A DNA stretch of 64,000 nt from Pseudomonadota bacterium. GTDB lineage: Bacteria; Pseudomonadota; Alphaproteobacteria; Acetobacterales; Acetobacteraceae. The notes below the pieces were generated by a model. It was not told where the DNA came from, did not search any database, and saw only the letters and a list, made by a program, of their open reading frames with translations. The stretch lies in NCBI GenBank assembly GCA_021798575.1, contig JAJZGI010000002.1, positions 1-64,000 on the forward strand. Direction: 5' to 3'. Shown piece by piece: positions 7,859 to 25,923 of this stretch (the first letter of the stretch is position 1; each line of letters opens with the position of its first letter). Both the position numbers and the translations under genes were made by a program.

Positions 7859-8734
7859 TCAGGCGTTCACGTAGTTTTTCAGGAATTCGCGCACGGCGGG
7901 GCCGAGATCCGGCCGGGCCAGGGCGAAGGCGATCTGCGCCTCCAGAAAGCCGATTTTATCGCCGCAATCGAAGCGCCTGCCCTCGAACTTCAGCCCATGG
8001 AAGGGCGCGTGGCCGATCATTTTCGCCATCGCGTCCGTTAATTGCACCTCATTGCCCGCGCCGCGCTCCATCATCGAGAGATAGGTCATCACCTCCGGCA
8101 ACAATATATAGCGCCCGATGATCGAAAGATCAGAGGGTGCGTCCTTCGGCGCCGGTTTTTCGACCAGCCCCTCCACCGCGACGCGGTTGCCCTCCGCCGC
8201 GCCGATTTTGAGGATACCGTAGCGGTTGGTGTGCTCGGGCGGCACCTGCGTCACCGCCACCACGTTGCCGCCGGTCTCCTGATAGACGTTGGCCAGCTGC
8301 TCCAGGCAGGGTGTGTCGCTCAGCACCAGGTCATCGGGCAGGAGAATCGCGAACGGATCCTCGCCAATGAAGCTGCGGGCGCACCAGATGGCGTGGCCGA
8401 GCCCGAGCGGGACCTGCTGGCGTACGGTGGAGATGGAGCCGGGCGGCATCGCCTCCGAGCGCAGCAGCGCCAGGGCGTCGCGCTTGGAGCGCTCGGCCAG
8501 CGTGGCCTCCAGCTCGAAGGCGATGTCGAAATGGTCGATGAGCGCGGTCTTGCCCCGCCCGGTGACCATGCAGAACTGCTCGATGCCCGCCGCGCGCGCT
8601 TCATCCACCGCGTATTGGATCAGCGGCTTGTCCACCACGGGCAGCATCTCTTTGGGCATCGCCTTGGTTGCGGGCAGAAAACGGGTCCCGAGCCCGGCCA
8701 CGGGCAACACCGCTTTACGCAAAGGTTTAACCAA
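7859..8734 (-). CDS. galU: UTP-glucose-1-phosphate uridylyltransferase
   Basis: GalU (291 aa) makes UDP-glucose from UTP and glucose 1-phosphate. The nucleotide-binding signature GLGTRFLPATKAMPKEMLP sits near residues 12-30, followed by the conserved QYAVDEA. Other family parts are LPDDLVL near residue 130, VEKP and the C-terminal KIGFLEAQIAFAL. The likely start is TTG 8734, because a GGAGG site lies 6 nt upstream on the minus strand and the length then matches the family (about 290 aa). The longer open frame to 9484 overlaps the divergent WD40 gene and is not coding. It heads the sugar-phosphate operon, with a 36-nt gap to the mutase. Confidence 0.95.
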   Translation of the reverse strand: MVKPLRKAVLPVAGLGTRFLPATKAMPKEMLPVVDKPLIQYAVDEARAAGIEQFCMVTGRGKTALIDHFDIAFELEATLAERSKRDALALLRSEAMPPGSISTVRQQVPLGLGHAIWCARSFIGEDPFAILLPDDLVLSDTPCLEQLANVYQETGGNVVAVTQVPPEHTNRYGILKIGAAEGNRVAVEGLVEKPAPKDAPSDLSIIGRYILLPEVMTYLSMMERGAGNEVQLTDAMAKMIGHAPFHGLKFEGRRFDCGDKIGFLEAQIAFALARPDLGPAVREFLKNYVNA

Positions 8735-8845
8735 GACACTCCTCCGTGTGACAATGCGGGCGATCACTGCCATGCGCGCTGAGGTGCTGCAAGCAGCCCG
8801 GCCCGCGGGCTTGCCCGAGGCGGGCGGGTTCGGCACAAGGTGACC

Positions 8846-9862
8846 ATGCCGGACCTCGACGAGTTGCTCACCACCCGTGGCTTTAGTGCCGAATTCGGCG
8901 CGTATGTTACCGCTGCGTGTTTTTCCGGCAATGGTGGCCACGCCGGTTTTGCGCTGGGGGATGGCAGCCTGCGCCTCAGCGACACCAAGGCCTGGAGCCG
9001 GGTGGACGCCCATGCGGGCGCGGTGCTGAGCCTGGCGACGCACCCGCAAAATGGCGGGTTTTGCTCGGGCGGGGATGATGGAAAGCTGCTTGGCATCCTG
9101 CCCGGGGGCGAGGTGACGCGGATCGCCGAGTTTGGCCGAAAATGGGTGGAGTATCTCGCGGTTTTTGCGGGCAAGACGCCGCTGGTGGCCGCCGCCGTGG
9201 GGAAGAACGTGCATCTGTTCAGCGGCGCTGGCGAGAAGATCCGCGAATTCGCGCATCCGTCCACCGTTACCGGCATTGCCTTTGACGCGCGGGGCAAGCG
9301 GCTCGCCGCGGCGCACTATAATGGGGCGTCGCTCTGGTTTACCGCCAGTAGCGCGCAGGCGCCGCGCCTGCTGGAGTGGAAGGGCAGCCATCTGGGTGTG
9401 GCGATCCACCCCAAGGGCGAGGCGCTGGTGACGGCGATGCAGGAGAATGCGCTGCATGGATGGACCCTGCCGGAGGCCAAGCATATGCGGATGTCCGGTT
9501 ATGCGGCCAAGCCGGAGTCTTTCGGGTTCACGCGCTCTGGCCGCTGGCTGGCCACCGCCGGAGCGGAGGCCGTGGTGCTATGGCCGTTTTTTGGCGGCGG
9601 GCCGATGGGCAAGGCGCCCAGCGAGCTTGGCGCCAGCGACGGCAGCGTGAAGCGTGTTGCGTGTCATCCGGAGCATGAGGTGGTGGCCGCCGGGTTCGAC
9701 ACCGGGCTGGTTGTGGTGATCGACATCGCTGCCGAGCGGATTCTGCCGGTGTGCGGGCCGGGGCGCGGCGGTATCACCGCGCTGGGCTGGAGCGGCTCCG
9801 GCGCGCATCTGGCGCTGGGTACGGAGCATGGTTTTGCGGCGGTGGTGGATTTTTCGGGGTAG
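8846..9862 (+). CDS. WD40-repeat protein
   Basis: This 338-aa soluble protein is built of about seven beta-propeller blades. Repeated units of the form alternating strands plus SLATHPQNGGFCSGGDDGKL, GIAFDARGKRLAAAHYNG, GFTRSGRWLATAGAE and RVACHPEHEVVAAGFD are visible. It has no signal peptide, so it is cytoplasmic. It probably serves as a protein-binding platform; the partner is unknown. The start at ATG 8846 is preferred over GTG 8840 because AAGG lies 5 nt before it. It is divergent from galU with about 110 bp between the starts. Confidence 0.88.
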   Translation: MPDLDELLTTRGFSAEFGAYVTAACFSGNGGHAGFALGDGSLRLSDTKAWSRVDAHAGAVLSLATHPQNGGFCSGGDDGKLLGILPGGEVTRIAEFGRKWVEYLAVFAGKTPLVAAAVGKNVHLFSGAGEKIREFAHPSTVTGIAFDARGKRLAAAHYNGASLWFTASSAQAPRLLEWKGSHLGVAIHPKGEALVTAMQENALHGWTLPEAKHMRMSGYAAKPESFGFTRSGRWLATAGAEAVVLWPFFGGGPMGKAPSELGASDGSVKRVACHPEHEVVAAGFDTGLVVVIDIAAERILPVCGPGRGGITALGWSGSGAHLALGTEHGFAAVVDFSG

Positions 9863-13677: not shown

Positions 13678-13706
13678 TGGACACTGCCTGCCCTGACCAA
13701 TAGAAT
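13678..13706 (+). promoter_or_regulatory. Possible promoter of the PqqD-like cassette
   Basis: TGGACA (13678-13683) and TAGAAT (13701-13706) are separated by 17 nt, a fair sigma-70 layout. The predicted start of transcription falls on or next to ATG 13713, giving a leaderless mRNA, whereas an AAGGA ribosome-binding site at 13706-13710 argues for transcription from farther upstream. Tentative. Confidence 0.3.
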
Positions 13707-13712
13707 AAGGAA

Positions 13713-14159
13713 ATGTTACAATTATTCCATCCGCGGTCGCCTGCGGTCGTCAGTGAAATAATCGATGGTGAAGCGATTATCCTGGATCTCAGATCCGGCG
13801 TGTATTTCAGCGCCCAGGATGCCGGTGCCGTGATCTGGGATGGTCTCGCGGCGGGGTTTTCCACCGACCTGATCGAGCTTAGGCTTGCGGAATTCTTCAT
13901 TGGTGAACCGACACGGTTGCAAACCGGGATGGCGGCGATGATCGCCGATCTTATCGCCAACGATCTGATCGAGGCCGCAAGCGAGGTGCCCGCCGCGCCG
14001 CAATGGAGCATGACACCGCCGACCGCCAGAACGCCGTTTACCGCGCCGGTTCTGCACCGCTACGGAGACCTGCAGGACCTGGCCAGGCTCGACCCGATCC
14101 ACGACGTGGCGGAGGATGAGGGCTGGCCGAACCGCCGCTCCGCCATGCCCGATGCCTGA
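13713..14159 (+). CDS. PqqD-like (RRE-fold) protein with conserved-looking C-terminal tail
   Basis: Residues 10-90 form a PqqD-like domain: the pattern VVSEIIDGEAIILDLRSGVYF, then DAGAVIWDGL, then a helical end. PqqD folds are the peptide-recognition element (RRE) of many RiPP enzymes. Residues 91-108 are a Pro/Ala/Thr linker, and residues 109-140 are a separate tail with YGDLQDL, LARLDPIHDV and EDEGWP. No PQQ genes are near, so it is not PqqD itself. The following nucleotidyltransferase and HprK-like kinase genes match the PqqD-relative of the HPr-rel-A type cassette described by TIGRFAMs. The tail could be the substrate that the cassette modifies (inference). It overlaps the next gene by 8 nt. 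Confidence 0.8.
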   Translation: MLQLFHPRSPAVVSEIIDGEAIILDLRSGVYFSAQDAGAVIWDGLAAGFSTDLIELRLAEFFIGEPTRLQTGMAAMIADLIANDLIEAASEVPAAPQWSMTPPTARTPFTAPVLHRYGDLQDLARLDPIHDVAEDEGWPNRRSAMPDA

Positions 14160-14844
14160 ACATGTCAGCGTTATTATTCCGTGCCGGAATGGCGCGGCCT
14201 ATCTGGCGCAGGCGATTGCGAGCGCCAGGCTGGAAGGTGCGCATGAGATCATCGTCGTCGATGATGGCTCGGAAGATGCGAGTGCCGACATCGCGGAATC
14301 AGCCGATGCCGTGCTTCTGCATCGCCAGCCGCCAATGGGTGCCGCCGCGGCGCGCAACGCCGGCATCGCCATGGCAACCGGGGGGTATATCGGGTTTCTC
14401 GATGCGGATGATCTGTGGACGCAGGGCAGCCTCGCCTGCCGACTAAGTGCTCTGAAACACGACCCGGGCGCGGCGGCGGCTTATGGCCATGTCAGGCATT
14501 TCTACAGCCCCGAACTAGACGCGGCGAGCCGTGCTGCCATCGTCTGCCCGTCCGGCGCGCAGCCGGTGAGGCTGCCCGGCAGCATATTGTTCCGGCGGGA
14601 GGTTTTTACGCGCATCGGCGGTTTTGATGAAACCCTGAAGATCGGTGAAATGTTCGACTTTATCGCCAAATTCGGCGAAGCCGGTTTTGCCGCCGTGTGT
14701 CTTGCGGATGTCGTGCTGGCCCGGCGGCTGCACGCTCGCAACATGACGCGCGGTGGAAACGCCTCGCGGTCGGGCTATCTGCACAGCCTCAAGGCAGTGC
14801 TCGACCGGCGCAGGATGCTCGTTGCTTCCGGAAAGCCGACGTGA
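14152..14844 (+). CDS. Glycosyltransferase family 2 protein
   Basis: This 230-aa GT-A fold glycosyltransferase starts VSVIIPCRNGAAYL, has the nucleotide-sugar loop IIVVDDGSEDAS near residues 33-44, the acceptor-region GAAAARNAGIA, and the metal site FLDADDLW near residues 82-89. It has no membrane segment. ATG 14152 is chosen because it places the first strand at residue 4; the open frame upstream to 14116 only overlaps the PqqD-like gene. Its C-terminal part (HARNMTRGG then LKAVLDRRR) matches the C-terminal GT domain of the kinase fusion downstream, so the two are paralogues. It overlaps the next gene as GTGA. Confidence 0.88.
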   Translation: MPEHVSVIIPCRNGAAYLAQAIASARLEGAHEIIVVDDGSEDASADIAESADAVLLHRQPPMGAAAARNAGIAMATGGYIGFLDADDLWTQGSLACRLSALKHDPGAAAAYGHVRHFYSPELDAASRAAIVCPSGAQPVRLPGSILFRREVFTRIGGFDETLKIGEMFDFIAKFGEAGFAAVCLADVVLARRLHARNMTRGGNASRSGYLHSLKAVLDRRRMLVASGKPT

Positions 14845-15980
14845 GCGGTTCAACCCTGGCCACACGGCTGGCGCGGCCTGTGGGGGCGGTATGGCCCAAC
14901 GCTGAACAGAACCTGGTTTTGCAGGCGATCTTTGCCGAGGCAGGCCCGGCCCGCGCCGCGTTCCTCACCTGGCGGGAAGGCGTTGATCTGGAAGGGCATT
15001 TCGAGCGCCCCGTGTTTCGGCTATTGCCGCTCCTGTACCTGCGCATACTGGCCATGGGTGTTGACGACCCCATCATGGCGCGGCTGAAAGGTGTATACCG
15101 CAGCGCGTGGTCGGAGACCCATTCATTGCTGTATGCGACAGCCCCCGCAATAGCCGCGCTGGCGGCGGCGGGGATTCCCACCTTGTTGCTGAAGGGCGCG
15201 CCGCTGGTGCTGGTTCATTATCGTAATCATGGCAGCCGTCCGATGGCTGATCTCGACCTCGCCGTACCGGCTGCAACTGTCCAGGCCGCGCTGACATGCC
15301 TGGCGCGTGCCGGCTGGCTGCCGGACGCGCCGATCACGGCGCATGATCTGGCATTCCGCCATGCCGCCACATTGCGCGGCGGCAACAAGCGCGAGATTGA
15401 TCTGCATTGGCATCTGCTTTTCGAGCATTGCGACGCGGCAGCCGATGAAATTTTCTGGAGCCAAGCGGTTCCGCTGACATGCAATGATGTTCCCACCGCC
15501 GCGCTGGGGCCGGAGCTGACCTTGCTGCATGGCGTCATCCATGGGCTGCGCGCCAATACCGAACCGCCGATCCGCTGGATCGCCGATGCCATGACGGTGC
15601 TGAATCAAGCCGGGGAAAATTTTGATTGGACGCTGCTGACGACCAGCGCGTCTCGGCTTGGCATGGCAAGGCGGGTCTGGCTCGGGCTGTGCTACCTGCG
15701 GCAGGCTCACGCCGCCCCGATCCCTCCATCCGTGCTCGATTCACTGCGAGCCGCGCCCTCGCCGCTGCCTGAGCGCCTGGAAATCTCCATGATGCTGCGC
15801 TCAACGCCGCTTGCCCTGCCCCGAATATTGCGGAAATCCGTGCTGCTGATCGCTGAATTTTTACGGGTCACGCGGGGGTGCTCCCGGCTGGCCTCTGCCA
15901 GGCTTCTGCCGGCGTTCCTGCGGTACCGGCTTGGCCTGCCATCCGCGCGCAGGCTCAGTGGCCGTCTGATCAGGTTCTAG
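14841..15980 (+). CDS. NTP_transf_5-type nucleotidyltransferase family protein
   Basis: This 379-aa soluble protein carries the core of the uncharacterised nucleotidyltransferase family (PF14907 type): IPTLLLKGAPLVLVHY then RPMADLDLAVP near residues 112-142, with the paired Asp of a minimal nucleotidyltransferase site, and later EIDLHWHLLF. The family is commonly found with HprK-like kinases and PqqD-like proteins, but the transferred group and acceptor are not established to my knowledge. The start is GTG 14841, overlapping the previous stop as GTGA; the frame open from 14697 upstream is shadow. The C-terminus is Arg-rich. Confidence 0.8.
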   Translation: MSGSTLATRLARPVGAVWPNAEQNLVLQAIFAEAGPARAAFLTWREGVDLEGHFERPVFRLLPLLYLRILAMGVDDPIMARLKGVYRSAWSETHSLLYATAPAIAALAAAGIPTLLLKGAPLVLVHYRNHGSRPMADLDLAVPAATVQAALTCLARAGWLPDAPITAHDLAFRHAATLRGGNKREIDLHWHLLFEHCDAAADEIFWSQAVPLTCNDVPTAALGPELTLLHGVIHGLRANTEPPIRWIADAMTVLNQAGENFDWTLLTTSASRLGMARRVWLGLCYLRQAHAAPIPPSVLDSLRAAPSPLPERLEISMMLRSTPLALPRILRKSVLLIAEFLRVTRGCSRLASARLLPAFLRYRLGLPSARRLSGRLIRF

Positions 15981-15985
15981 GTGTC

Positions 15986-17773
15986 ATGGAAGGGTGCGAC
16001 ATTCCTCCGGCCAGTGAGGCTGAGCAACAGGTGTTTTTTGATGCGATGATGGCGAGTACCCGTCGCGCTCAAGAGATCGGCCTGCCCGTTATTGAGCGCA
16101 TCAACCTCGCCGGTATCAGGATAGACCTGGTCTTCACCGGCGCGGCCCCGCGGGATGCGTTGTTCCCCGCGCTGGCGCATCTGCGCGCCCCTGCTGACAT
16201 GCCGCCAAAGGCCGTGCTGCATATCTGGGACAGCGCCGCCACGGGCATGAATGTTCCACCACCGCCATGCGCGCGAAATTGCTTCACCGATCGCGGGGAT
16301 ATCTGGGGATTTGAGAGCAGGAATATCCTCACCGCCTTCCATTGGATGGAATGCAGCGTCGCGTTGCTGGACACGCGAAGCATGACGGGCATCTACTGGA
16401 TGGACGATGCCGGTGCGCTGCCCTACTGGAGCCGGGCCTCGCCATTGCGGACTCTGCTGCATTGGGTCACCCGGCATTTCGGTTTTCATCTGCTTCATGC
16501 CGCGGTGATCGGGACTGAGGCGGGCGGTGTCATCCTGACCGGCAAGGGTGGTACGGGTAAATCCACGACCGCGTTGCTCTGCCTGGAAGCCGGGATGCAA
16601 TATATTGGCGATGATTATGTCGTTGTCGGGTTTGCCCCCGAGCCCCGTGCCTATCCGCTCTATGGCACCGCCAAGCTGAACCCCGACCAGGCGGCGCATT
16701 TTCTGCGGCTTCGTGAGGCGCAGGTTTTGCTGGGCGAGGCCGACAACCCATCGGGAACCGAGCCTGCCAAGACCGTGTTCCAGCTATATCCAGGCCGGGC
16801 CGCGCAAATGCCGGAATCCCTGCGCGTGATCGCCATTGCGATGCCGCTGATCAGCCCGCGTGACGACACGGATTTCGCGCCTGTTGACAGTTTCACGCTG
16901 CTGCGCTCCGCCTCGTTCACCACCTTGGCGCAACTGCCGCGCGCGGGCAGCTCATCGCACGAGTTCATTGCCACGCTCTGCCGTTCCCTGCCGCGCTTCA
17001 CGCTGCGGCTTGGCCGTGATTTTAAGAAAATTCCAGGCGCTATAAACGAGTTTATCGAGCATCCGCCGGTGCACGTGGCGTTGGAGACGATGCCAGCCAA
17101 CCTGCCCATGATCAGCGTCATCATTCCGGCCTATAACGGTGTGCGGTTTCTCCCGGAGGCAGTGGCCAGCATATTGGCGCAGCAATATCCATCTCTTGAC
17201 CTTATCATCGTCGATGACGGCTCGACGGAGGATATCGCCACTGCGGTGAGGAACCTGCCCTGCGATGTCCGGTTCTTTCGTCAGGAGAATGTCGGCCCCG
17301 CCGCGGCCCGCAACCGCGGCATTCGCGAGGCCAGTGGTGAGTATCTTGCATTTCTGGATATCGACGACCAGTGGCCTGAGGGCAATCTTGTCCGCCTGCT
17401 CAATATTCTCACCCAGGACCCAGGGCTCGATGTCGCGATGGGGCGCGGCCAGTTGATGCGGAAAAGCGGGGCGCAGGATGATATCATGTATATCGGCAAT
17501 GCGGCCGAGAGCTTCCCTTACCTGATAGCCGCCGCGCTGTATCGCCGCCGTTGCTTCGAGCGGGTCGGCCTGTTTGATCCGGAACTGATCTTCGGCGAGG
17601 ATACCGATTGGTTCACGCGGGCAGCAGAGCGGGAGCTGCGCATTGAACGCGTGGCCGAGACAGCGCTGCTGGTCAGACGACACGACACGAACATGACCAA
17701 AGGGAAATCTCTCGTGGAGCTGAATGCCCTGAGAGTATTCAAAAAAACACTGGACCGGCAAAGGCAGACGTGA
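15986..17773 (+). CDS. HprK-like kinase fused to a family 2 glycosyltransferase
   Basis: This 595-aa two-domain protein combines enzymes normally encoded apart. Residues 1-360 are an HprK-related kinase: the P-loop LTGKGGTGKSTTAL at about 184-197 and the metal/catalytic stretch YIGDDYVVV at about 206-214. Residues 374-595 are a GT-A glycosyltransferase: MISVIIPAYNG, LIIVDDGSTED, GPAAARNRGIREA and the metal site FLDIDDQW. Canonical HPr kinase acts on a Ser of HPr in the PTS, but this domain is divergent and no PTS gene is near. ATG 15986 follows the previous stop by 5 nt. Its likely target is a cassette protein such as the PqqD-like tail or a modified peptide (inference). Confidence 0.85.
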   Translation: MEGCDIPPASEAEQQVFFDAMMASTRRAQEIGLPVIERINLAGIRIDLVFTGAAPRDALFPALAHLRAPADMPPKAVLHIWDSAATGMNVPPPPCARNCFTDRGDIWGFESRNILTAFHWMECSVALLDTRSMTGIYWMDDAGALPYWSRASPLRTLLHWVTRHFGFHLLHAAVIGTEAGGVILTGKGGTGKSTTALLCLEAGMQYIGDDYVVVGFAPEPRAYPLYGTAKLNPDQAAHFLRLREAQVLLGEADNPSGTEPAKTVFQLYPGRAAQMPESLRVIAIAMPLISPRDDTDFAPVDSFTLLRSASFTTLAQLPRAGSSSHEFIATLCRSLPRFTLRLGRDFKKIPGAINEFIEHPPVHVALETMPANLPMISVIIPAYNGVRFLPEAVASILAQQYPSLDLIIVDDGSTEDIATAVRNLPCDVRFFRQENVGPAAARNRGIREASGEYLAFLDIDDQWPEGNLVRLLNILTQDPGLDVAMGRGQLMRKSGAQDDIMYIGNAAESFPYLIAAALYRRRCFERVGLFDPELIFGEDTDWFTRAAERELRIERVAETALLVRRHDTNMTKGKSLVELNALRVFKKTLDRQRQT

Positions 17774-17805: not shown

Positions 17806-18132
17806 TCAGTCGGGAAGGGGAGCGGGCGGTATCCGCAGATATGCCATAGCCACTGCCTCGGCGTCGCCCATGATGGCTCGAATGTACGATTTTGCTGTGG
17901 TGTCAGGCTCTTTGGCCCCTTGCTCCCAATCCCGGAGGGTGCCGAGGGGGATACCGTATCGCTTGGAGAATTCTTCCTGCGTCAGCTTCAACACGCGCCG
18001 GAGCGTTTTTACTCTCGGCACAGCTTTGACCTTGGACAGTTCCTCTTCTGTCATGGGTGGTAGATCGTCATCGTAGTTTCGGATGGCGGGAGCAGCCTGC
18101 TTGCGAGTGAAGGCCACGGTCGCGTTAGACAT
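17806..18132 (-). CDS. XRE-type helix-turn-helix antitoxin of BrnT
   Basis: This 108-aa DNA-binding protein has a clear helix-turn-helix near residues 50-85 (LRRVLKLTQEEFSKRYGIPLGTLRDWEQG). It lies directly downstream of brnT; ATG 18132 overlaps the brnT stop by 8 nt, which is why this start is preferred over 18141 or 18168. It should neutralise BrnT and repress the operon. Classical BrnA is a ribbon-helix-helix protein, so this is a BrnT system with an HTH-type partner. Its 3' end faces the end of the HprK-glycosyltransferase gene. Confidence 0.82.
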   Translation of the reverse strand: MSNATVAFTRKQAAPAIRNYDDDLPPMTEEELSKVKAVPRVKTLRRVLKLTQEEFSKRYGIPLGTLRDWEQGAKEPDTTAKSYIRAIMGDAEAVAMAYLRIPPAPLPD

Positions 18133-18442
18133 CAAATTCATTTTCACGGTTAAAACATCGCCTTTCATTTGCTTCTACCGGCCTGGCCGAGATGATATGG
18201 GTACGGTCGCCACGAATCGAATGGGTGACAAAAAGCATCCTATCACCCGACCGGCCAAGGACATTGAATCGTTGTTCGCCATAATCCGCCCGCCGGTCTT
18301 CGCCTAAATCGACCAAACATAGATCGCTGAAAACCAGTTTTGCTACATCGAAGCTGATACCATCATGTTTAGCGATGTTGCTGGCCTCCTTATGGCGCAA
18401 CCAGCAAAATTCGCCGTCTTCATAGAGATCAGGTTGGGACAT
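18125..18442 (-). CDS. brnT: BrnT-family toxin (RelE-like RNase)
   Basis: This 105-aa protein fits the BrnT family: CWLRHKEASNIAKHDGISFDVAKLVF at the start, then the ED-R-DYGE-R block, VTHSIRG and ISARPVEANERR. BrnT is a ribosome-independent RNase that stops translation and is held in check by its antitoxin. Family Lys/His/Arg/Glu active-site candidates are present. On the coding strand a TTGACA lies about 25 nt before ATG, with a short inverted repeat ACTG-N5-CAGT between it and the start, suitable for autorepression. The surroundings are lower in GC than the flanks. Confidence 0.85.
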   Translation of the reverse strand: MSQPDLYEDGEFCWLRHKEASNIAKHDGISFDVAKLVFSDLCLVDLGEDRRADYGEQRFNVLGRSGDRMLFVTHSIRGDRTHIISARPVEANERRCFNRENEFDV

Positions 18443-22557: not shown

Positions 22558-23442
22558 TTAAGGCTCGGCCAGGATTTCGCGCACCACCCCGCCCACGCTG
22601 GCCCGCCAGTCCGGCAGCCGCACGCCGAAGACCTCGGCGAGTTTGCCGTTATCGAGCCGGGAATCCGCCGGACGGCGGGCTGGCGTCGGCCAGTCCGCCG
22701 TGGAGATGGGCTGGAGTTGCGGCGGCGTGCGGCCAAGGGCGGCGGCGTGCTCGAAGATCGCGCCCGCGAAGCCGTGCCACGTGGTCTCTCCCGCGCCAGT
22801 CGCGTGGTAGATACCCCGGTAGTGGTCCGCCCAGCCGGTGGATTGCACATTATACACGATTTGGAGAATCGCGTGCGCCAGATCGTTGGCCGATGTGGGC
22901 GTGCCGCGCTGGTCCGCCACCACCCGCAGAAGCGGCATTTTTTGCCCGGCGCTGAGCATGGTGCGGGCGAAGTTTTTGCCGTGCGCACCATAGACCCAGG
23001 CGGTGCGCAGGATGATCGCCTTCGCGCTGGACGCCAGGACCGCCACCTCGCCATCGCGCTTGGTGGTACCGTACACGCCGGCGGGGTTGGTCGCGTCCTG
23101 CTCCAGATAGGGCGCGCCCTTGGCGCCATCGAACACATAGTCGGTCGAGATATGGAGGAGCGGGATATCCGCCGCCGCGCAGAGCCGCGCCAGAGCCAGC
23201 GGCCCCAGATGGTTGCCCGCTTTTGCGGCATCCGGATTGGTCTCCGCCGCGTCCACCAAAGTGTAGGCCGCGGCGTTGATCACCAGGCTGGGTGCGGTTT
23301 TAGCGAAACATTCTGCGATGGTCTCGGGCTGCTCGAAGTCGAACATCGGGCGGGTGACTTCGGTGCAGGCGAGGCCGCGCCCGCGCGCCTGGACTACGAG
23401 CGCATGGCCAAGCTGGCCGGAGCCGCCGGTGATGAGGATCAT
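22558..23442 (-). CDS. rfbD: dTDP-4-dehydrorhamnose reductase
   Basis: RfbD (294 aa) catalyses the last step of dTDP-L-rhamnose synthesis, NAD(P)H reduction of dTDP-4-keto-L-rhamnose. The extended-SDR fold starts [15 protein letters not shown], followed by INAAAYTLVDAAE, HISTDYVFDG and the YGTTKRDGE active site (Tyr-x3-Lys). Start ATG 23442 overlaps the rfbC stop as ATGA. It is the last gene of rfbBACD. Confidence 0.94.
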   Translation of the reverse strand: MILITGGSGQLGHALVVQARGRGLACTEVTRPMFDFEQPETIAECFAKTAPSLVINAAAYTLVDAAETNPDAAKAGNHLGPLALARLCAAADIPLLHISTDYVFDGAKGAPYLEQDATNPAGVYGTTKRDGEVAVLASSAKAIILRTAWVYGAHGKNFARTMLSAGQKMPLLRVVADQRGTPTSANDLAHAILQIVYNVQSTGWADHYRGIYHATGAGETTWHGFAGAIFEHAAALGRTPPQLQPISTADWPTPARRPADSRLDNGKLAEVFGVRLPDWRASVGGVVREILAEP

Positions 23443-23993
23443 GCGAACCAGGGCTCGCATTCAGCCAGCCGGGGCAGCGTCTGGTCTTTCTCGGAGAGCA
23501 GCGCCCCACCTGGTGCCACCGGCCAGGGCAGCGCCAGCGCCGGGTCGTTCCAGATCACCGCGCGCTCGGCTTGCTTGTCGTACTCGCCGGTGACTTTGTA
23601 GAAGACCTCGGTGTCCGGCACGATCGTGCAGAATCCGTGCAGGAACCCGGGCGGAACCCAGAGCTGCGCCCAGTTCTCGGCGCTGAGCTCGGCCGCCGCG
23701 AATTGCCCGTAGGTGGGTGAGCCGGAACGCACGTCCACCGCCACGTCCCAGATCGCGCCTTTGAGCACCCGAACTAATTTGCCCTGGACGTTTTTGCCGA
23801 TCTGGCAGTGCAGGCCGCGCACCGTGCCGACCTGGGCCGAAAAACTCTGGTTATCCTGCACGAAATTTGCGGTGAAACCCTGCTCGCGCAATTTGCCGGC
23901 GTTCCAGGTCTCGGAGAAAAAGCCTCGGGAGTCGCCGAATTTCGGCGGCGTGATGCGCAGCACCTCGGGGATGTTCAGCGGCTCGATTTTCAT
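23439..23993 (-). CDS. rfbC: dTDP-4-dehydrorhamnose 3,5-epimerase
   Basis: RfbC (184 aa) is a cupin-fold epimerase acting on C3 and C5 of dTDP-4-keto-6-deoxyglucose. The motifs [32 protein letters not shown] (catalytic His) and the later [11 protein letters not shown] and [14 protein letters not shown] are intact. The common GLHYQ is GLHCQ here. It is coupled by ATGA overlaps to rfbA upstream and rfbD downstream. Confidence 0.95.
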
Positions 23994-24874
23994 CCCCCAT
24001 GCCCTCCATCGGCGATCTCGCGCAGTATCTGCCCCAGCTCGGTCTTGCCGATCATCCCGGCGCGCGCGCGCAGCGCCTGCGCATCGATATAGCCCATGCG
24101 GAACGCCACCTCCTCAGGGCTGCCGACGAGGTTGCCTTGCCGGTGCTGGATGGTCTGCACGAAGGTTGCGGCCTGCAGGAGGGAATCCGGCGTGCCGGCA
24201 TCCAGCCAGGCGGTGCCGCGGCCCAGCCGCTCCACATGCAGCGTGCCCTCGCGCAGATACATCTGGTTGAGGTCGGTGATCTCAAGCTCGCCGCGCGCGG
24301 AGGGCCGCACCGCATGGGCAAATTCCGTCACCCGCGCATCATAGAAATACAGCCCCGTTACCGCCCAGGAGGAGTTTGGGTGCACCGGCTTCTCGACAAT
24401 TTCGGTCGCCATGCCCTTGGCGTTAAATGACACGACGCCGTAGCGCTCCGGGTCTCGCACCTGATAGGCGAACACCGTGGCACCCTTGGGGCGCAACGCC
24501 GCGGCGCGCAGCAGCCTGGAGAGATGATCGCCATGGATGAGGTTATCCCCCAGCGCCAGGGCGCAGCCCTCGCCATCGATCCATTCCTCGCCGATCAGGA
24601 AGGCCTGCGCCAGACCGTCCGGGCTCGGCTGCTCGGCATAGCTGATGCGGATGCCAAGATGCGAGCCATCATGGAACAGCCGCTGGAATTGCGGCAGATC
24701 CTCCGGCGTGGAGATGATCAGCACCTCGCGGATGCCCGCCAGCAGCAAAGTGGAGAGCGGGTAATAGACCATGGGTTTGTCGTACACCGGGAGCAACTGT
24801 TTGGAGGTCGCCTGGGTCATCGGGTGCAGCCTGGTGCCGGAGCCGCCGGCCAGCAGAATTCCCTTGCGGATCAT
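23990..24874 (-). CDS. rfbA: Glucose-1-phosphate thymidylyltransferase
   Basis: RfbA (294 aa) forms dTDP-glucose from dTTP and glucose 1-phosphate. The signature [21 protein letters not shown] is at residues 5-25, followed by [27 protein letters not shown], and VEKP with LYFYDARV. Start ATG 24874 overlaps the rfbB stop as ATGA. It uses the same glucose 1-phosphate pool as GalU. Confidence 0.95.
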
Positions 24875-25923
24875 ACGCGCGCGCCCAGACGCTGGCCTGC
24901 ATAGTTTCGGGCGGCGATGGCGCGCCACCATGCCTCGTGGCGCAGATACCAGTCGATCGTGACGGCCAGCCCATGCGTGAAATCATGCTCAGCCGCCCAG
25001 CCCAATGCGCGCTGCGCCGTGGTAGGGTCGATCTCATAGCGGTTGTCATGCCCTGGCCGGTCCCGCACATGGGTGATCAGGCGCTGGCGCGGCCCCCTGG
25101 GGCTTGGCAGTTTTTCATCCAGAATTGTACAGATCTCCCGCACGACATCGATGTTGCGCCGGGGCTGGCGCGCGCCAATGCAATAGGTGGCGCCGGGCAC
25201 GCCCAACTGCAATACTTTCAGCAGCGCTTTGGCGTGGTCTTCCGCGAACAGCCAGTCCCGCGTCTGGCGGCCATCGCCATAGACCGGCAGCGGGTTTTCC
25301 TGAATCCCGTTGATGATCATCAGCGGGATCAGTTTTTCAGGGAACTGCCAGGGGCCATAGTTGTTCGTGGTGTTGGAGACGATGACCGGCAAGCCGTAGG
25401 TGTGCTGCCAGGCGCGGGCCAGATGGTCCGACGCGGCCTTGGTGGCGGAATAGGGGCTCCGCGGGTCGTAGGGCGTGTGCTCATCGAACGGCGGGTCGTC
25501 ATCCGCCAGTGCACCGAAGACCTCGTCGGTCGAGATGTGATGAAAGCGGAAGCTCTCGCGCTGGCTGCCCTGGAGCGTGGCGAAATATGCCCGGGCGGCT
25601 TCCAACATCACGAAAGTGCCGGTCACGTTCGTGGCTACAAAATCTCCCGGCCCGTCGATGGAACGATCCACGTGGCTCTCAGCGGCCAGATGCATCACCG
25701 CATCGGGCCGGTGCTCGGCGAAGGCCGCGCGCATCAAAGGCGCATCGGTGATATCGACGCGGACTAGGCGGTGGTTGGGATGGTGACCCGCCTGCTCCAG
25801 CGCCGCCTCGCTCGCGGCGTAGGTCATCTTGTCGATATTGACGACCTCATGGCCCTGGGCGATGGCGTGGCGGACGACCGAAGAGCCAATGAAGCCACAA
25901 CCGCCGGTGAGAAGAATTTTCAT
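24871..25923 (-). CDS. rfbB: dTDP-glucose 4,6-dehydratase
   Basis: RfbB (350 aa) is an extended SDR that converts dTDP-glucose to dTDP-4-keto-6-deoxyglucose. Visible marks are the start [44 protein letters not shown], the [11 protein letters not shown] active site, and [18 protein letters not shown] precedes ATG 25923. The frame open to 26319 upstream is a shadow. It heads rfbBACD and is 47 nt after a glycosyltransferase gene. Confidence 0.95.

Follow-up and report, generated by a model that had tools for sequence, protein, structure and literature searches.

A recurrent four-gene cassette in an Acetobacteraceae genome pairs a lasso-B1-like recognition element and its near-invariant tail with a candidate peptide-modification system

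The stretch of DNA analysed here, hereafter the window, comprises 64,000 nucleotides of contig JAJZGI010000002.1 (positions 1 to 64,000, forward strand) from an Acetobacteraceae bacterium (GCA_021798575.1). It contains a cassette of four intact plus-strand open reading frames (ORFs) arranged head to tail at 13713-17773. The first gene (13713-14159, +) encodes a 148-residue protein with a domain resembling PqqD and the recognition elements (RREs) of ribosomally synthesised and post-translationally modified peptides (RiPPs), followed by a C-terminal peptide tail. The next two encode a family 2 glycosyltransferase (GT2) of 230 residues (14152-14844, +; PF00535, E = 1.3e-25) and an NTP_transf_5 protein of 379 residues with a nucleotidyltransferase fold (14841-15980, +; PF14907, E = 1.6e-37, 129.9 bits against a cut-off of 31.2). 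The fourth product, of 595 residues, joins an HprK-like kinase and a second GT2 in one chain (15986-17773, +; PF07475 and PF00535). Genes 1 and 2 overlap by 8 nt, genes 2 and 3 share a GTGA overlap and a gap of 5 nt separates genes 3 and 4; by computation, the arrangement is an operon.

An initial annotation of this DNA had described the same junctions and the same four product types, and both descriptions hold, with two of the domain matches being marginal. PF05402 (PqqD) matches the first protein with E = 1e-4 and 23.0 bits, just under its cut-off of 23.4, and reaches 24.5 bits for the same gene in a six-frame search of the genome. In the fourth protein, PF07475 (Hpr_kinase_C) scores 24.1 bits (E = 2.9e-5), under its cut-off of 33.3, and the second domain matches PF00535 (E = 1.1e-28, residues 377-483; GT2 domain at 17114-17770, +). 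Among the models named in that annotation for checking the assignments, PF14907 and GT2 thus pass, PF05402 lies at or near its threshold, and TIGR04352 and TIGR04353 fail. The cassette itself is real; its proposed start at 13678 lies 35 nt ahead of the first start codon of the frame.

The predicted structure of the first protein has an RRE fold of the lasso-B1 type. In an AlphaFold model built on an alignment of 73 sequences, with an overall predicted local distance difference test score (pLDDT) of 89.2, a winged-helix domain spans about residues 10-90 (13740-13982, +; block pLDDT 96-98). Structural comparison with Foldseek and VIA-align showed that residues 3-90 fit the RREs of lasso B1 proteins, the best match being TbiB1 (5v1v_A; Foldseek E = 3.1e-5, Z = 12.7, root-mean-square deviation 1.9 over 87 residues). 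Another lasso B1 protein followed with Z = 10.9, and PqqD scored lower (Z = 7.5). These best-matching folds belong to lasso B1 proteins solved with leader peptides, TbiB1 with its own. NCBIfam lasso PqqD models match the RREs of 71 of the 73 relatives at E <= 0.001, the window RRE itself lying far under their cut-offs, and the PqqD model TIGR03859 matches just 8 of the 73.

Behind the RRE lies a conserved tail that the initial annotation had overlooked, and which proved to be the most informative part of the protein. In the window it reads FTAPVLHRYGDLQDLARLDPIHDVAEDEGWP (residues 109-139). It opens with a leader-like stretch, FTAPVLHRYG (residues 109-118; 14037-14066, +), which follows the pattern FxxPxL..Y reminiscent of lasso leaders and carries a proline, P112, in 81 of 82 aligned proteins. 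The near-invariant motif DLQDLARLDPIHDVAEDEGWP follows (residues 119-139; 14067-14129, +; consensus DMQDLLLLDPIHEVDExGWP), in which D119, L126, D127, P128, G137, W138 and P139 are identical in 82/82 proteins and H130 in 81/82. In the AlphaFold model, confidence remains high along the leader-like stretch (block means of 97 for residues 101-110 and 91 for 111-120, with a strand at 115-117) and lies at 57-64 over residues 121-148. This suggests a predicted arrangement in which the leader-like stretch rests on its own RRE in cis and the motif is left free.

To gather relatives, a collection of species genomes was scanned with one tail pattern, covering residues 119-127, and one RRE pattern. Of 115 relatives 80 were kept; 62 of these loci matched the tail bait only, nine matched both baits and nine (including L012) the RRE bait only. 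Together with the window and one plasmid-borne relative (Crinalium pCRI9333.04) they make up the 82 aligned proteins; two pairs of loci (L007 and L009; L008 and L037) are duplicate DNA. Since 71 of the 80 loci match the tail bait, selection by the search contributes to the apparent conservation of residues 119-127. The positions P128, H130, G137, W138 and P139 fall outside the bait. Over 72 thinned sequences, mean column entropy was 0.30 bits within the bait (119-127) and 0.81 bits beyond it (128-139), compared with 2.27 bits for the RRE (12-87) and 1.44 bits for its best 21-column window. The 18 loci matching the RRE bait, nine of which lack a tail-bait match, all possess the tail, and in 15 thinned sequences from this set the entropy was 0.63 bits for residues 119-139 and 2.04 bits for the RRE outside the bait.

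The tail is present in 80/80 retained relatives; behind the RRE it was likewise found in one genome of the same class and in another genome of the genus (51% identical). Record titles give the 80 loci and the plasmid 16 phylum names, with four records unplaced; metagenome bins are in the majority, some of them probably misassigned, and Bacillota is not among the names of the 80 loci. A search of plasmids returned the Crinalium protein as the one tailed relative, besides one PqqD/lasso-type match in Priestia, and no relative of the PqqD-like protein was found on virus contigs. A profile of the tail alone recovered 51 matches in 50 cassette genomes (one genome having two) on open frames of 148-290 aa. 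The same profile gave six good matches among 398 Pseudomonadota genomes (frames 151-235 aa); among 244 genomes of the cyanobacterial phylum, 15 contained a total of 16 matches (frames 152-228 aa). All good tail matches therefore sit on RRE-sized proteins (open frames 148-290 aa). Neither these searches, at the thresholds used, nor the 80 loci revealed a stand-alone tail peptide, and no second copy of the motif was found within the 80 loci. Three weak matches in Pseudomonadota (E = 0.004-0.010, frames of 581-1298 aa) were dismissed as chance.

A variant of the system occurs in the cyanobacterial phylum, where eight of the 15 tail-bearing genomes are small (1.7-2.1 Mb). At the five small-genome loci that were read, the tail ends in ADPIHE[VI]K[ED]ETGW[TS]PEK. 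In L143, L145, L146 and L147 the tail of the RRE protein ends in GWT or GWS, not GWP, and the protein is encoded next to an HprK-like kinase with a second PqqD-like part. This additional part lacks a tail and was recognised by our own PqqD profile in the HprK protein at four of the five loci (E = 2e-4 to 6e-8).

The enzymes encoded alongside the tailed RRE retain conserved motifs. The kinase core (16496-16771, +) comprises H171, a Walker A motif of the pattern G.GG.GKS (G186-S193), D209-D210 and K262, so that the Walker A, His and Asp-Asp elements of HprK-like kinases are all present. Conservation among the relatives is nearly complete: 72/72 for H171, G189 and K262, 71/71 for K192 and 71/72 for D209 and D210. 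We take H171, the Walker A residues and D209-D210 to be catalytic. The kinase aligns to residues 25-70 of 1jb1 with E = 0.011. In the NTP_transf_5 protein the pattern KG..R...DxD...DxH is conserved, including R133 and D137xD139. The protein has no match by sequence in the PDB; its AlphaFold model (pLDDT 93.1) resembles, at a distance, the solved folds of a fungal nucleotidyltransferase-like protein (5uvd), MenT1, ANT(2'')-Ia and LnuA. Weaker again is its resemblance to FKRP (E = 0.05), which was solved with CDP-ribitol (cytidine diphosphate ribitol) and a sugar acceptor. The first GT2 has kept its DDGS and DADD motifs, and among NCBIfam models it matches MftF best (92.1 bits, cut-off 280).

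The same gene set surrounds the tailed RRE elsewhere. Across the 82 loci, many of which are on short contigs, we counted an HprK-like kinase at 71, an NTP_transf_5 gene at 73, a GT2 gene at 80 and an ATP-binding cassette (ABC) exporter gene at 36. At 51 loci 4 kb or more is available to either side; 45 of these have the kinase, NTP_transf_5 and GT2 together, and 24 of the 45 the exporter as well. The gene set described initially is therefore not a chance grouping in the window, but a unit that recurs across phyla. The fusion of HprK to GT2 was found in 19 distinct loci, the window and 18 others. One exporter that was scanned has ABC_membrane and ABC_tran domains, resembling ABCB-type transporters and then Sav1866, BmrA, bacteriocin transporters and MsbA. 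Further neighbours include group 1 glycosyltransferases (GT4), sulfotransferases and methyltransferases, with epimerases in some clusters; these names come from the 25 families listed, of 113, in a scan of 87 of 182 unlabelled neighbours, and the GT4, epimerase and sulfotransferase labels were assigned partly by reading. At the related locus L007, in another genome of the genus, a radical SAM/SPASM gene follows the cassette (L007:1017-2090, -); the window cassette has none. The four cassette proteins gave no match to defence systems in PADLOC at E <= 0.01.

A separate precursor peptide beside the cassette was considered and rejected. Small ORFs (22-150 aa) near the 82 loci, one duplicate locus omitted, were compared with one another and yielded no credible family. 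The largest cluster had eight members from seven loci, all antisense to GT2 genes, and the remaining listed clusters came either from three records of the Oscillatoria type (L031, L039, L044) or from two of the Dolichospermum type (L015, L017). A loose leader pattern was fitted by 15 small ORFs, among which no family emerged. The genome (2.37 Mb, 96% complete) has no second PqqD match in a six-frame search and 0 matches to the leader peptidase PF13471, and its Asn_synthase matches are confined to two contigs (C33 and C40) other than that of the window (C11). A remnant of a lasso or pyrroloquinoline quinone (PQQ) cluster was rejected for this genome on these grounds, in agreement with the initial annotation, which had reported lasso and PQQ genes to be absent.

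Taken together, these observations lead us to propose, tentatively and at just short of an even balance, that the cassette encodes a self-contained RRE-based modification system in which RRE and substrate are fused, with the tail as carrier or primer of a phospho-glycan that the kinase, the NTP_transf_5 enzyme and the GT2s would make. The simplest substrate for the RRE to hold would be its own tail. The groove of the RRE (residues 1-90), which in lasso B1 proteins accommodates a separate leader, would here be occupied by the FxxPxL..Y part of the protein's own tail, an arrangement that would present the motif LDPIHEVxxxGWP to the co-encoded enzymes. The HprK-like kinase may then make a phosphorylated acceptor, as the enzymes of paeninodin, pseudomycoidin and the linear polyphosphorylated peptides (LPPs) would suggest; the NTP_transf_5 enzyme might attach a sugar or sugar-phosphate to this acceptor, with the GT2s then extending the glycan. 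Sulfotransferase, methyltransferase or epimerase genes would add to this scheme in some clusters, as would an ABC exporter at 36 of the 82 loci. We infer the order of these steps, the modified residue, the product and the role of the tail as substrate. The initial annotation had likewise proposed a system adding phosphate, nucleotide and sugar to a peptide or protein; the conserved kinase and nucleotidyltransferase motifs speak partly for this, and published relatives of both enzymes add phosphate and hexose to peptides, but the addition of a nucleotide and the identity of the modified molecule are hypothetical.

A more specific form of this proposal is possible but rather unlikely. Recognition element and substrate would be one polypeptide, in which the RRE grips a built-in leader and offers the core LDPIHEVxxxGWP to the kinase, the transferase and the GT2s, yielding a phospho-glycan tethered to protein or else a modified-peptide factor of universal occurrence. 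Because Ser and Thr are not conserved in the core, an unusual residue may then bear the modification, for instance the invariant Asp or Trp or the His present in 81/82 tails.

Should the tail be the substrate, RRE and precursor would have become a single protein, and a pathway present in many phyla would escape genome mining based on precursors. A modified peptide that is near-constant across many phyla, as in the case of PQQ, would suggest that its role is general and not that of an antibiotic. With its constant sequence the tail also provides a direct handle on the system: a single motif to find it by, a small protein to weigh by mass spectrometry and few residues to mutate.

Several observations weigh against the tail being modified by these enzymes. 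The tail has no invariant hydroxyl residue: 14 of 82 tails have no Ser or Thr from D119 onward, and those of L012 and L083 have no Ser, Thr or Tyr from residue 109 on, with a kinase present at both loci. The published kinases PadeK and LppK act on Ser, a residue that is not conserved in the tail. The modification would hence be on another residue, the conserved candidates being the Asp, His or Trp of the tail, or the tail would be a docking device for a substrate elsewhere. RiPP cores are usually variable, and the near-invariance of the tail fits a docking peptide too. Docking in cis is a monomer prediction, taken from model confidence and strand assignment with the coordinates uninspected. 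The relatives were gathered mostly via the tail, so that tail-less relatives are under-sampled, which lowers our confidence in the tail as substrate and raises that in a docking role. The NTP_transf_5 protein matches solved folds weakly (its best Foldseek hit has E = 3.6e-4 and TM 0.36 of the query), and in the accessible portion of the LPP report (PMC13381572) deletion of the nucleoside triphosphate (NTP) transferase gene lppN caused no visible change. Six of the 51 well-flanked loci lack the kinase, NTP_transf_5 or both. An ABC exporter accompanies only 36 of the 82 loci, and no window ORF between 8 and 24 kb joined the exporter family in ORF clustering. A peptidase that could release a product was not noticed, peptidases not having been searched by family. 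The second PqqD-like part of the cyanobacterial-phylum kinases was not reported by Pfam in the single such protein scanned.

The foremost alternative, doubtful in our view but a serious contender, is that the tail serves for docking or regulation: it would bind the kinase, the nucleotidyltransferase or a GT2, or would block the RRE groove until displaced by the true client, a precursor peptide or protein that is encoded elsewhere or is too variable to be recognised. Extreme conservation without a conserved modifiable hydroxyl is what such a peptide would show, good tail matches are always on RRE-sized proteins, and the apparent position of the leader-like part on the RRE is that expected of a cis-inhibitor. 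However, RiPP precursors usually adjoin their enzymes; the four abutting genes of the window leave no space for one inside the run, and no conserved small ORF was found near the 82 loci, in a search confined to these neighbourhoods and not extended to the rest of the genomes.

It is improbable, though conceivable, that the cassette instead makes a glycan or glycolipid of the capsule or exopolysaccharide type, with the kinase acting on a sugar or lipid, the NTP_transf_5 protein as a sugar-phosphate transferase (a kind that includes FKRP and LicD) and the tailed RRE as a scaffold. GT2 genes lie within the fetched DNA at 80 of the 82 loci, 54 of which have two or three, GT4 and sulfotransferase families are among the neighbours, FKRP, at E = 0.05, is a weak structural match to the NTP_transf_5 protein, and rmlA, rmlC, rmlD and a galU-like gene are found in the same window. 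Yet among the neighbour families listed there is no polysaccharide polymerase or flippase, and the supposed scaffold is a lasso-type RRE, a peptide-binding fold. Membership of the HPr-rel-A system, which the initial annotation had invoked, or descent from an ordinary lasso or PQQ cluster, is highly improbable: PqqD and HprK-like proteins are indeed paired and lasso PqqD models match 71/73 RREs, but the curated cut-offs are missed by far (TIGR04352, 21.5 bits against 200; TIGR04355, 30.3 against 200), TIGR04353 has no match in the window and matches 3 of 73 PqqD relatives (best E = 2.4e-4), and the genome has no PF13471, no near Asn_synthase and no second PqqD match. At these curated cut-offs HPr-rel-A membership is rejected.

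In the window, the cassette and the adjoining BrnT-like toxin and helix-turn-helix (HTH) genes are flanked on one side by a gene for an MscS-type channel and on the other by a methyltransferase-like gene, beyond which lies a metallo-hydrolase-like gene; the names of the methyltransferase and hydrolase come from reading, the family scan having assigned the methyltransferase-like protein to no family. The gap between channel and hydrolase genes measures 5.6 kb here. In 19 of 37 other genomes of the genus, all read by hand, the two genes are within 2.6 kb on one contig (0.8-1.0 kb in 13); in 17 they are on different contigs or one is missing, and in one they are about 66 kb apart. Among 36 other genomes of the genus searched, only G033 has another cassette, which lies on a different contig from its channel-hydrolase pair. 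Because the pair is close together in other genomes and the G033 cassette lies apart from it, the cassette is probably an insertion. Directly downstream, and part of the same probable insertion, are the BrnT-type toxin gene (PF04365, E = 1.3e-18) and an overlapping HTH gene (17806-18442, -). A small M78/IrrE-like metallopeptidase (PF06114; 10085-10588, +) with a PADLOC match to capP (8e-21) is encoded 3 kb upstream. The dTDP-rhamnose (deoxythymidine diphosphate rhamnose) pathway genes rmlD, rmlC and rmlA (22558-24931, -), all above cut-offs, are separated from the cassette by 5-7 kb. A galU-like gene, located within 7859-9484, reaches 318.5 bits against a cut-off of 326.8 in the part scanned; the products of these genes are possible sources of sugar donors.

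The kinase tree mixes phyla, with 28 label changes compared with a minimum of 14, and an average of 44.7 in shuffles. Labels are thus still clustered and horizontal transfer is not proven by a tree that has weak support, long branches and probable misassignment of bins. L036, under the title Acidobacteria, and L037, under the title Alphaproteobacteria, encode almost the same RRE-tail protein, and at least one of these bins is therefore probably misassigned.

When comparing the cassette with described systems, the nearest in print are the LPPs of Bacillota and the paeninodin-type lasso peptides, both of which have separate precursors. In the accessible portion of Popov et al. 2026 (PMC13381572), LPPs and paeninodins are described as restricted to Bacillota, and LppK polyphosphorylates Ser3. 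As far as that portion shows, LPP clusters share with the present loci the combination of RRE, HprK-like kinase and NTP transferase with no lasso cyclase, an ABC exporter (here at 36/82 loci), proximity to polysaccharide genes, a patchy distribution and a leader motif of the [Y/W]xxP type, of which the tail here has the FxxPxL-like part only. In contrast, the LPPs described there use discrete RREs and separate, variable precursors, whereas the near-invariant tail here lies within the RRE protein. Their precursor motif YxxPxVLxHQxIxFETxxS was not encountered here, their MsbA-like exporter has no counterpart among the window ORFs at 8-24 kb, and an SpI-like peptidase such as theirs was not noticed in the four-gene run or among the neighbour families listed, no search by family having been made for it. 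GT2s, on the other hand, are near-constant neighbours here, and the tail lacks a conserved Ser.

Paeninodin and pseudomycoidin pathways (PadeK; PsmK and PsmN) resemble the cassette, in the sections available, in their HprK-like kinase, nucleotidyltransferase-fold enzyme and B1-type RRE. The available text of PMC9266682 reports that PsmK phosphorylates Ser and credits PsmN with the addition of hexoses to phosphoserine, leaving it possible that PsmN is a nucleotidyltransferase helped by a host enzyme. The present cassette differs in the genome's lack of PF13471, in having no near Asn_synthase, no separate precursor found, and in its added GT2s. Like HPr-rel-A systems, it encodes PqqD-like and HprK-like proteins together, but its scores are far under the cut-offs of that system, NTP_transf_5 and GT2 genes are its neighbours and its tail is conserved. 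PQQ and mycofactocin pathways likewise combine a PqqD-type protein with a near-constant peptide. Unlike those, the window cassette has no radical SAM gene, and TIGR03859 matches just 8 of 73 RREs.

Surveys of RREs from 2020 and 2025, in their accessible portions, mention fusions of RREs to glycosyltransferases, and an RRE with a built-in substrate was not seen there. A literature search of full texts, with subscription journals and supplements outside its scope, did not find LDPIHDV, LDPIHEV or a description of the tail. The cassette family looks like an undescribed relative of the pathways that produce phosphate- and sugar-modified peptides, with a real chance that it stands further from the known kinds.

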